NCBI GenBank assembly: GCA_016187925.1
Contig: JACPIS010000022.1
Location: 1-51,860, forward strand
DNA length: 51,860 nt
Reading direction: 5' to 3'
Origin: Opitutia bacterium
GTDB lineage: Bacteria > Verrucomicrobiota > Verrucomicrobiia > Opitutales > Opitutaceae
Shown: piece by piece, positions 27,933-43,611 of the stretch
Numbering within the stretch: position 1 is the first letter of the stretch
Layout of the letters: each line of letters opens with the position of its first letter
The notes under the pieces: model-generated
Database searches by the model: none
The model's input: only the letters and a program-made list of their open reading frames with translations
Told to the model about the DNA's origin: nothing
Position numbers and translations under genes: made by a program

Positions 27933-28190
27933 CCTGTAGCGGCGGTCTATGACCGCCGCGCAGATCGACGTTGCCTGCTTCCGGCGGTCATAGACCACAG
28001 CCGTCCTACAAGAACTCGTTTCGGTCCTCCTTTGCATGTCATCCTGAGCGAAGCGAAGGATCCACGTGCTCGGGCGCGATGCAGGATTCGCACGCGTGGA
28101 TTCTTCGCTGCGCTCAGAATGACAGGATACGAAGTTGGCGCCGGAAGTGTGCGCTGTGGGATGTCTGTGGTCATAGACCGCCGCTACAGG
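27933..28190. repeat. Nested inverted-repeat element in the mreC-mreD gap
   Basis: A 22-bp perfect inverted repeat bounds the element: CCTGTAGCGGCGGTCTATGA... at 27933-27954 and its complement at 28169-28190. The left arm also folds alone (CGGCGGTC, TAT, GACCGCCG). A third related copy, GGCGGTCATAGACC, is at 27983-27996. A family A palindrome pair lies inside, at 28038-28123. No ORF is encoded. It fills almost all of the 304-base stretch between mreC and mreD. Confidence 0.8.
28038..28123. repeat. Family A paired palindrome (86 bases)
   Basis: Starts GTCATCCTGAGCGAAGCGAA and ends TTCTTCGCTGCGCTCAGAATGAC, so the two arms are inverted copies around a short centre. The same length and ends occur at 35308-35393. 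Confidence 0.85.
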
Positions 28191-33836: not shown

Positions 33837-33955
33837 GCCTATCCGAATAACACCTGTTTTGGCCTGCGCCTGGGTAGGGCGGGGCGGCCCGCCCCGCCGC
33901 GGCGCACCGGGCCGGTGCGCCCTACCGCGCAAAACCGGCCGATATTCGGATAGGC
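33837..33955. repeat. Composite inverted-repeat element (MITE-like)
   Basis: 13-bp perfect terminal inverted repeats, GCCTATCCGAATA (33837-33849) and TATTCGGATAGGC (33943-33955). The interior carries GGTAGGGCG and CGCCCTACC arms around two GC-rich hairpins (GGGGCGG/CCGCCCC and GGCGCACCGG/CCGGTGCGCC). It ends 2 bases before the DUF58 gene stop codon. Confidence 0.75.
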
Positions 33956-35307: not shown

Positions 35308-35393
35308 GTCATTCTGAGCGCAGCGAAGAATCCACGGCCGCGAACCACATGCCGTGGGCGACGTTCCGGATTCTTCGCTGCGCTCAGAATGAC
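35308..35393. repeat. Family A paired palindrome (86 bases)
   Basis: Same length and ends as 28038-28123: starts GTCATTCTGAGCGCAGCGAA and ends with the GCTGCGCTCAGAATGAC arm. It sits between moxR and the DUF58 gene within one operon. Confidence 0.85.
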
Positions 35394-41376: not shown

Positions 41377-41451
41377 GTCATCCTGAGCGCAGCGAAGGAT
41401 CCACGGAGCGCCCGAGTTTTGTGCTGGATTCTTCGCTGCGCTCAGAATGAC
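41377..41451. repeat. Family A paired palindrome (75 bases) between rseP and ispG
   Basis: Starts GTCATCCTGAGCGCAGCGAA and ends TTCGCTGCGCTCAGAATGAC. The central spacer is 11 bases shorter than in the 86-base copies. Confidence 0.85.
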
Positions 41452-41472: not shown

Positions 41473-43611
41473 ATGTCCTACTGCGCCTCCCGCTTCCACA
41501 CCCTCCGCCGCCGCACCGTCCCGGTGCCGGTCGGCTCGGTCGGCGTCGGCGGCGCGCATCCCATCCGGCTGCAGTCGATGACGACAAGCGACACGCAGGA
41601 TGTCGCCGCCACGGTGAAGCAGTCCATCGCGCTGGCCGAGGTTGGTTGCGAGATCGTGCGCATCACCGCGCCGAACGTGCCCGCGGCCAAGTGCCTGAAG
41701 GACATCCGCGCGCAGCTCACTGCCGCGGGCTTCGGCCACATCCCGCTCGTGGCCGACATCCATTTTCTGCCCGCCGCCGCCATGGAGGCGGTCGAGCACG
41801 TCGAGAAGGTCCGCGTGAATCCCGGCAATTACGCCGACAAGAAGAAGTTCGCGGTCAAGGAATACACCGACGCCGACTACGAGCAGGAGTTGCAGCGGCT
41901 CCACGATTCCTTCACGCCGCTGGTGAAGCGCGCCAAGGAACTCGGCCGCGCCCTCCGCATCGGCACCAACCACGGCTCCCTCTCCGACCGCATCATGAAC
42001 CGCTACGGCGACACGCCGCTCGGCATGGTCGAGAGCGCGCTGGAGTTCGTCCGCATCGCTGAGGCGCACGGCTTCCACGACATCGTGCTGTCGATGAAGG
42101 CCAGCAACCCGAAGGTCGTCATCCAGGCCTACCGGCTGCTGGTCGAGCGCATGGACGCCAAGCACCAGCCCTACCCGCTGCACCTCGGCGTGACCGAGGC
42201 GGGCGATGGCGAGGACGGCCGCATCAAGAGCGCCATCGGCATCGGCAGCCTGTTGCTCGACGGTCTCGGCGACACCATCCGCGTGTCGCTGACGGAGGAT
42301 TCGGTTTACGAGATCCCGGTCGCCCGCGCCATCGCCGAGAAAGCCATGAGCCTGTGGAAAGGTAGGGCGCGACCGCTGGGCGCGCCGGAAATGTCGCTCG
42401 CGGCGGGCCCAGCGGTCCCGCCCTACCCCCCGCTGTCGTCCGCCGAAGGTCGGGCGGACCGGCCCGGTCCGCCGTCATCCGCGGGCGAACAAGACGCCAT
42501 TGATCCTTTCCACTTCACGCGCCGCGCCACGACGACGCTGCAACTCTCCCCGCAATGCATCGTCGGCCCCGAGCAGCCGCCGCGCGTCATCGTGAAGGTC
42601 GGCTCTGTCGAGCTCCTCGCCGCCGCCGCGCAGGAACTTTCCTCGCCCAAGCTCAAGGACACGCCCGCCGAGGGTCTGCTCGTGCGCGTCGAGACGCCCA
42701 GCGACCTCGCCGATCTGGCGGAGCTGGTGCGCGACACGCCGCTCCCGGTGCAATTCCTCGCGCTCGAGGCCGGCCCGCTGCTCACCGCGGCGGATTTCGC
42801 CCCGATGCTGGAAGCCGACGGCGGCCGGTTGATGCTCGTGCGGCGGTTCGGCGCGAAGGATGCGGCCACGCTCCGGGAATTCGCCGCCTTGGTGCGCGGG
42901 AAGCAGCATTTTCTGGCCATCGATCTCGCCGACCCGACGGACGCGGCCCTGCAGGCCTGCGTCCGCGACCTCGGCGACGACCGGCTGGTCTTCACCTGCT
43001 CGACCAAGTCCGGCGACGCGGGCCACGCCACCGGCACCTACCGGCGGTTGTTGGAGTTTCTGCGCTCCACCGGTTCCCAGGCGCCCATCTGGATCCGCAA
43101 CACCGACGCGACCGCGGTGCAGCCCGGTCCCAGTTTCCTGTCCAAGCTGCTCGAGGCCAGTTTCCTCTCCGGCGGATTGCTGTGCGACGGCGCGGGCGAC
43201 TTCATCAGCATCGAAACCGAGGCCGACGTCACCCGCGCGACCAAGCTCGCCTACAACGTCCTCCAAGGCGCCGGTGCGCGCATCTCGAAGACGGAATTCA
43301 TCTCCTGCCCGAGCTGCGGGCGCACGCTGTTCGACCTGCAGACGACCACCCAGCGCATCCGGGCGCAGACCGGCCACCTCAAGGGTGTGAAGATCGCCAT
43401 CATGGGCTGCATCGTGAACGGTCCGGGCGAGATGGCCGACGCGGATTTCGGCTACGTCGGCGGCGCGCCGGGCAAGATCAACCTCTACGTCGGCAAGACC
43501 TGCGTGCAGTACAACATCCCGCAGGCCGAGGCCGACGCGCGATTGATCGCGCTGATCCGCGAGCACGGCAAGTGGGCCGATCCGGAGCCGCATCACGCCG
43601 CGCGCGCGTGA
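41473..43611 (+). CDS. ispG: (E)-4-hydroxy-3-methylbut-2-enyl-diphosphate synthase, long form
   Basis: The 712-residue [4Fe-4S] enzyme makes HMBDP in the MEP isoprenoid pathway. It is the three-domain type with a central insert. The TIM barrel is at about 1-295 (IRLQSMTTSDTQDVAATV, VRVNPGNYADKKK). The C-terminal reductase domain holds the cluster cysteines (ISCPSCGRTLFDL and IMGCIVNGPGEM). Residues about 297-338 (GRARPLGAPEMSLAAGPAVP, then PYPPLSSAEGRADRPGPP and SSAGE) are low-complexity and are encoded by palindromic repeat DNA at 42361-42483. They look like an in-frame insertion between the barrel and the insert domain. Confidence 0.94.
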   Translation: MSYCASRFHTLRRRTVPVPVGSVGVGGAHPIRLQSMTTSDTQDVAATVKQSIALAEVGCEIVRITAPNVPAAKCLKDIRAQLTAAGFGHIPLVADIHFLPAAAMEAVEHVEKVRVNPGNYADKKKFAVKEYTDADYEQELQRLHDSFTPLVKRAKELGRALRIGTNHGSLSDRIMNRYGDTPLGMVESALEFVRIAEAHGFHDIVLSMKASNPKVVIQAYRLLVERMDAKHQPYPLHLGVTEAGDGEDGRIKSAIGIGSLLLDGLGDTIRVSLTEDSVYEIPVARAIAEKAMSLWKGRARPLGAPEMSLAAGPAVPPYPPLSSAEGRADRPGPPSSAGEQDAIDPFHFTRRATTTLQLSPQCIVGPEQPPRVIVKVGSVELLAAAAQELSSPKLKDTPAEGLLVRVETPSDLADLAELVRDTPLPVQFLALEAGPLLTAADFAPMLEADGGRLMLVRRFGAKDAATLREFAALVRGKQHFLAIDLADPTDAALQACVRDLGDDRLVFTCSTKSGDAGHATGTYRRLLEFLRSTGSQAPIWIRNTDATAVQPGPSFLSKLLEASFLSGGLLCDGAGDFISIETEADVTRATKLAYNVLQGAGARISKTEFISCPSCGRTLFDLQTTTQRIRAQTGHLKGVKIAIMGCIVNGPGEMADADFGYVGGAPGKINLYVGKTCVQYNIPQAEADARLIALIREHGKWADPEPHHAARA
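42361..42472. repeat. Palindromic repeats inside the ispG coding sequence
   Basis: GGTAGGGCGCGACCGCTGGG (from 42361) pairs with a right arm ending CCAGCGGTCCCGCCCTACC at 42427: about 20 bp with one mismatch. A second hairpin, GGCGGACCGG / CCGGTCCGCC, lies at about 42453-42472. The outer GGTAGGGCG/CGCCCTACC arms match the intergenic element at 33837-33955. Confidence 0.8.

Follow-up and report, generated by a model that had tools for sequence, protein, structure and literature searches.

Putative REP-derived codons in the predicted disordered interdomain linker of IspG from an Opitutia bacterium

The ispG gene and its interdomain linker

We analyzed computationally a stretch of 51,860 nucleotides from an Opitutia bacterium (contig JACPIS010000022.1 of assembly GCA_016187925.1), which is referred to as the window; its genome is denoted G000. 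The window carries at 41473-43611 on the forward strand an ispG (gcpE) gene of the insert-domain type, which encodes 712 amino acids plus a stop and was assigned by its reading frame, NCBIfam ispG_gcpE (460 bits) and Pfam GcpE. A protein search of the genome detected a single full-length IspG match, and the other match (18.7 bits) was to a REP peptide. PDB 3noy, which we take to be an Aquifex-type IspG, aligned only with residues 12-286 and 591-664 of the query, which indicates that the residues in between constitute the linker and the insert domain. The interdomain linker comprises residues 296-343 (42358-42501, forward strand) and connects a helix at residues 277-295 with the insert domain; it was delimited by its conserved flanks, its own variability and the secondary structure of the model. 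This agrees with the position given in an earlier note on this DNA, a loop joining the TIM barrel and the insert domain.

An AlphaFold model of IspG based on 37 aligned sequences had a mean pLDDT of 86.9 and a pTM of 0.88. The model contained 42 residues in total with pLDDT below 50, and the sole run of three or more such residues was 300-337 (42370-42483, forward strand). The linker is thus predicted to be disordered at residues 300-337, as had been anticipated for this loop. Residues 297-334 are those encoded by the REPs described below.

REP units in the linker DNA

Three REP units were assigned in the linker DNA. Unit 1 (42361-42387, forward strand, 50.3 bits with the covariance model) is of the GTAG type, belongs to subfamily R1 and reads GRARPLGAP, and unit 2 (42401-42427, reverse strand, 50.7 bits) is an inverted R1 unit of the same type that reads AGPAVPPY. 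Sequence comparison placed unit 3 at about 42448-42473 on the forward strand; it belongs to subfamily R2, has the tag GTCG instead of GTAG and reads GRADRPGPP. A REP unit consists of GGTAG followed by a stem in which the variable bases change in pairs. Over 22 units (11 distinct), 97.7% of the cells in the stem were paired, three of the eight pairs showed double changes, and none of 500 shuffles gave an equally high covariation. The units are therefore imperfect palindromes with compensatory changes, as expected for GTAG-type REPs, and the unpaired 5' GT(A/G)G of that type is present as GTAG in units 1 and 2 and in the degenerate form GTCG in unit 3. Units 1 and 2, 27 bases each and inverted, form a 67-bp REPIN (42361-42427), which is an inverted REP doublet folding as one hairpin in single-stranded DNA. 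The earlier note had described two hairpins here. Both are indeed palindromic, but the first is a pair of REPs in inverted orientation, and a REP of another subfamily lies within the second. On the evidence of sequence, REP DNA accounts for the extra ispG codons, namely a GTAG REPIN and one further REP from a sister subfamily.

The single-stranded DNA fold of 42355-42495 was estimated at -54.7 kcal/mol (z -5.6), and none of 200 dinucleotide shuffles folded as well. When the region 42340-42500 (161 bases) was used as a query, at least 50 further matches with E <= 1e-5 were found in G000, with 40 of 130 candidates scored and both strands of one element counted; among the matches listed, none reached bases 1-14 or 136-161 of the query. 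With the next 1109 bp of ispG, for which 40 of 261 candidates were scored, no other match in G000 fell below E 0.001. Seven copies of the word GGTAGGGC are present in the window, where 0.72 would be expected. Since 42361-42490 has a G+C content of 79% in a window of 66%, a GC-rich low-complexity linker might fold by chance. Such a compositional accident has next to no probability in our estimate, because the shuffles do not reproduce the fold, the stem covaries, and the copy number of the repeat contradicts it while the adjacent 1109 bp lack copies; a chance hairpin was accordingly rejected. The claim that palindromic repeat DNA lies in frame inside ispG thus held, both by the fold and by the dispersed copies.

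Copies across genomes and their RAYT genes

A covariance search at E <= 0.01 detected at least 67 R1-type units at 43 places in G000, the two in ispG included; both numbers are lower bounds, as 150 of 9767 candidates were scored. The hairpin is thus far from unique in the genome; a single occurrence would have counted against a mobile repeat. Its location mainly between genes, which had been predicted and is typical of dispersed GTAG-type REPs, was observed as well: 28 of the 43 sites were intergenic, 14 lay within genes (ispG included) and one at a gene edge. The same search at E <= 1e-4 gave at least 109 units in G001, 119 in G005 and 77 in G006, and from 0 to 5 units among the matches listed in six other genomes of the genus.

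With a RAYT of G001 as a query, 8 RAYT-like matches were found in G000. The best of them (C35:31783-32247, 58% identical) has inverted REPs on both sides, of which one is identical to 33874-33898 of the window and the other is identical to the third ispG REP at 24 of 25 bases. Because unit 3 is akin to a REP of this RAYT and units 1 and 2 are of type R1, the ispG insert combines two REP subfamilies. The RAYT genes of G001 and G021 have on both sides REPs of the R1 type to which units 1 and 2 belong, and the RAYT of G005 has one R1-type REP found by the flank comparison and a second found by cmsearch. A RAYT between two inverted REPs was thus observed for R2 in G000 (C35) and for R1 in G001, G021 and G005. 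R1 units are numerous in G000, yet none of its 8 RAYT-like matches was flanked by them on both sides.

A second REP-flanked RAYT match of G000 (C38:211532-211957, in L325, G000:C38:210500-213000) has a different REP, GTAGGGGCCGTTGCCCTCAACGGCCC and a variant, so that several RAYT-REP pairs coexist in G000. The RAYT open frames of L156 (G001:C6) and L141 (G005:C99) run into the flanking REPs and read NGGPSGPALP and RGGPSGPALP, respectively, near the C-terminus, so that the downstream REP encodes the end of the transposase.

In our reading, the extra codons of ispG are very probably RAYT-associated REP DNA kept in a disordered linker, which serves as a landing pad with a filter at the protein level. 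The REPIN and the third REP, which are of kinds linked to RAYT (Y1/HUH tyrosine) transposases, would have come into the linker DNA of ispG, probably through RAYT-driven single-strand transposition. They would have been retained, presumably as neutral passengers, because they lie in a variable, disordered linker, their length preserves the frame, and the Gly/Pro/Ala-rich peptide is mild and has no stop; selection at the protein level would filter which repeats may stay there. The earlier proposal of a mobile palindrome in a tolerant coding loop is right in substance, being supported by the flanks kept in relatives, the dispersal of the repeat and the predicted disorder.

The same linker in other IspG proteins

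We collected linkers from 110 IspG loci, which comprise those of 30 genomes for which the locus was returned (57 searched, 52 matched) and the best 80 of 582 loci; the two sets overlap partly, L048 and L231 having the same linker. The linkers span 12 to 52 residues and show no evident common sequence, whereas their flanks are conserved in relatives. The length was 12-22 residues in 87 of the 110 linkers and greater in 23. It had been foreseen that relatives would keep the flanks and lack the insert, which fits these 87 linkers of fewer than 23 residues and the finding that GTAG REPs in the IspG linker were confined to G005 and G006 among the 30 genomes of relatives inspected. In distant phyla, the linkers are unconserved and mostly short, and a few of 25-41 residues differ from that of G000 and have no strong hairpin; a loop conserved across phyla, which would have argued against an insertion, was thus absent from the set.

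Other repeats were found at the same place. The linker of G007 contains a hairpin, GTGGGAGC, with 75 further matches in its own genome, both strands counted. It resembles Pseudomonas REPs listed in PMC2817692, which makes it a REP of another family. With both strands counted in each case, the CATTGG inverted repeat in the G034 linker had 45 other matches in its own genome and the GACCGG repeat in the G028 linker had 29; the CAACATT repeat in the G036 linker is the weakest case, with 9 other matches and a best E of 2.6e-6. Repeat-like peptides occur in the linkers of G001, G008, L232, L234, L237, L254, L256, L268 and L307, which lay outside the own-genome searches. L307, a named isolate (Geminisphaera colitermitum TAV2), has a 48-residue IspG linker with a strong hairpin (z -6.4) and 16-base arms; its fetched match as a whole contains stops in one frame.

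Hairpins with z <= -3 were found in 9 of the 23 linkers of at least 23 residues, compared with 1 of 91 control windows from the same loci (Fisher p 1e-6) and none of the 87 shorter linkers (Fisher p 2e-7). The control windows of all loci gave 7 of 437. The other 14 long linkers, several of them from distant phyla, had no strong hairpin. Exact inverted arms of at least 8 bases, a cruder measure than the hairpin z, were present in 13 of the 23 long linkers and in any control window of 8 of the 23 loci, which is a weak contrast.

A quick IspG tree was made from 48 of the 110 rows with the linker left out. The seven repeat-carrying linkers required at least 7 changes on it, when linkers outside the own-genome searches were scored as having none. 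The linkers of G000 and G006 have, by eye, part of their arrangement in common, so that these two may represent one event. The clade of G006, G007 and G001 (SH-aLRT 100) has three different linkers, that of G001 being outside the own-genome search, which suggests that the contents of the linker turn over quickly. The relatives' linkers are too different from one another for the insertion ends or the target to be fixed from them.

Since other dispersed repeats occur in the same linker of relatives, the linker behaves as a recurrent landing pad, and it looks like one where repeats with harmless frames survive. We regard it as somewhat more probable than the contrary that the IspG linker of this family is a natural insertion trap, into which five dispersed repeat families entered in different species, and that only those REP frames that encode mild disordered peptides survive in genes. 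The REPIN with its RAYT genes, the in-gene REPs already on record and the different repeats in the linker by species all go beyond the earlier note.

Instead of RAYT transposition, recombination or gene conversion among REP copies might have brought the repeats into ispG, as might slippage. The two REP subfamilies side by side in the ispG of G000 and the three different linkers of the SH-aLRT 100 clade are compatible with such an origin, as is the lack of R1 REPs on both sides of any of the 8 RAYT-like matches in G000. We consider it unlikely, since REPs are present at many places where the listed flanks differ, RAYT genes with REP ends occur in the same and related genomes, and relatives have four other repeats at this position of the protein.

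REPs in other genes and their reading frame

The REP sites surveyed comprised all 43 of G000, the highest-scoring units from G001, G005 and G006, a small number from further genomes and two ispG relatives included on purpose. The set of 168 contained 165 unique sites, or 163 after two near contig ends were dropped. Genes were called with our own script, a self-trained ORF caller. Of these sites, 24 were inside ORFs, 20 overlapped a gene end and 119 were intergenic, in comparison with 83% of the fetched bases around REP sites that lay in called genes. A Pfam scan covered 19 REP-carrying proteins, the IspG orthologues L032 and L034 and the transporter orthologue L177 being set aside, and each of the 19 matched at least one family at E <= 1e-10. 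The REP-carrying genes encode an RND transporter, TRCF (Mfd), HrpB, MeaB, TatD, methionine synthase, GH31, GH9, a sulfatase and others. MnmA carries a REP in two species at different positions. Compared with a solved relative, MnmA has 29 residues (131-159) in place of 9, i.e. 20 extra, and its REP corresponds to residues 134-156 inside this gap. A helicase, presumably of the HrpA type (L107:1636-6045, G000:C39), has three separate in-frame REP sites in a reading frame of 1470 amino acids. Judging from flanking peptides and Pfam, the REP insertions in the RND transporter, MeaB-type and GH31 genes are each common to two species, indicating that some insertions were kept for long.

For the frame test, these three shared pairs, identified by flanking peptides, were counted once each, which left 21 sites. 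Among the forward in-gene REPs, 18 of 19 use the frame GGT AGG GC., which reads Gly-Arg-x-x-Pro-Leu/Pro-Gly and gives GRAxPLGxP and near variants (p 4e-5 against 1/2). The remaining one is a truncated unit read in the second open frame; TAG lies in the third. None of the 16 reversed in-gene REPs is in the Arg-rich frame. When only one ispG was retained and one doubtful ORF was dropped, the forward count was 15 of 16 (p 3e-4) and the reversed count 0 of 14 (p 0.003). The start of the ispG repeat on a codon boundary, to which attention had been drawn, is correct in that codon 297 begins at 42361, the first base of the repeat; it is not peculiar to ispG, since almost every copy within a gene is read in that same frame.

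The frame bias is likely due to selection at the protein level, which would be purifying selection. A target preference could account for part of the bias, as a Glu codon precedes 10 of 18 forward insertions. In-gene REPs often follow GAA, GAG or similar codons and intergenic ones often follow TGA or TAA; in a search around REPs, no single target motif fitted both in-gene and intergenic copies. Some REPs adjoin gene ends: among 246 units inspected in G000, G001, G005, G006 and other genomes, 9 provide the TAG stop of a coding frame, 8 come directly after a stop codon and 4 at one base from it.

The near-constant reading GRAxPLGxP of forward REPs and the three insertions shared between species would also be expected if the insert had been co-opted, the Gly/Pro peptide or an mRNA hairpin aiding IspG folding, domain movement or translation control. 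This is quite improbable in our view, because the linkers vary from 12 to 52 residues with no evident common sequence, the linkers of close relatives are short or carry other repeats, and the model shows no structure at the linker. Retention of REP DNA in a tolerant linker is the reading that we prefer.

Comparison with known systems

GTAG REPs within genes were described by Di Nocera et al. (2013, PMC3733652), who found them most frequent in Opitutus terrae (Verrucomicrobia). As in that study, the REPs described here have a GTAG tag, a short stem and inverted dimers and are mostly intergenic, with some wholly inside ORFs; the in-ORF REPs listed there include helicases and DNA-repair genes. 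In-gene REPs are thus already known and the IspG case is a further instance. The word ispG is absent from the main text of that paper and could be in its gene list (Additional file 3). Unlike the present analysis, the parts of the paper drawn on here make no mention of a biased frame or of several repeat families at one protein site. In the openly licensed literature searched, as far as it was accessible in part, no earlier report was found of a linker shared by several repeat families or of the frame bias.

REPINs and RAYTs, as presented in the sections consulted of Bertels and Rainey (2011, PMC3116915) and Nunvar et al. (2010, PMC2817692), likewise have inverted REPs and a spacer in one hairpin, a RAYT between inverted REPs and compensatory stem changes. 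The REPs described there are extragenic, whereas the ispG REPIN forms part of a coding sequence. Rickettsia palindromic elements (RPE; Ogata et al. 2000, 2002, as cited in PMC10969869 and PMC3733652) are given as about 150 bp long or as ending in CGTC. They too are palindromes in frame within unrelated genes and are said to be compatible with the protein fold, but they differ from the ispG REPs in sequence and phylum. Membership of the ispG repeats in RPE was rejected because the tag is GTAG (GTCG in unit 3) and not the CGTC given in PMC3733652. Nematomorpha mitochondria also have inverted repeats inside genes (PMC6649704); those coding palindromes are perfect and mitochondrial, and the portions of that paper used here give no link to REP or RAYT.

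One conserved enzyme shows how selfish repeats may become protein, the sequence itself revealing where they lie, in which frame they are read and how disordered the peptide is predicted to be. A single linker with different repeats helps to separate the sequence liking of a transposase from the tolerance of a protein for the spot, and the frame bias makes the protein-level filtering of mobile DNA measurable. If the proposed reading is true, REPs are a steady source of in-frame linker peptides and this family is a natural experiment on the protein-level filtering of selfish DNA. Annotation also benefits, since a hypervariable insert peptide like GRAGPLGPP can be a translated REP instead of a domain.

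Other repeats in the window

An intergenic composite repeat at 33837-33955, with no strand assigned, was used as a comparison element. Its outer inverted repeat, GCCTATCCGAAT/ATTCGGATAGGC, encloses an inverted pair of REPs (33874-33898 and 33901-33925). Seven near-full-length copies were found elsewhere in the genome, five at 94-98% identity and two more diverged, and the inner REP pair was also found without the outer part. The earlier note had equated the hairpin arms in ispG with those of this element. The REPs do belong to the same superfamily, but the element is a different, composite repeat with near-full-length copies of its own, and the identity of the two was rejected.

TCCTGAGCGCAGCGAAGGATC and its inverse form three inverted pairs in the window (28042-28119, 35312-35389 and 41381-41447), with 6 matches at up to 3 mismatches against 0 expected. 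The pair at 41381-41447 is located directly upstream of ispG.
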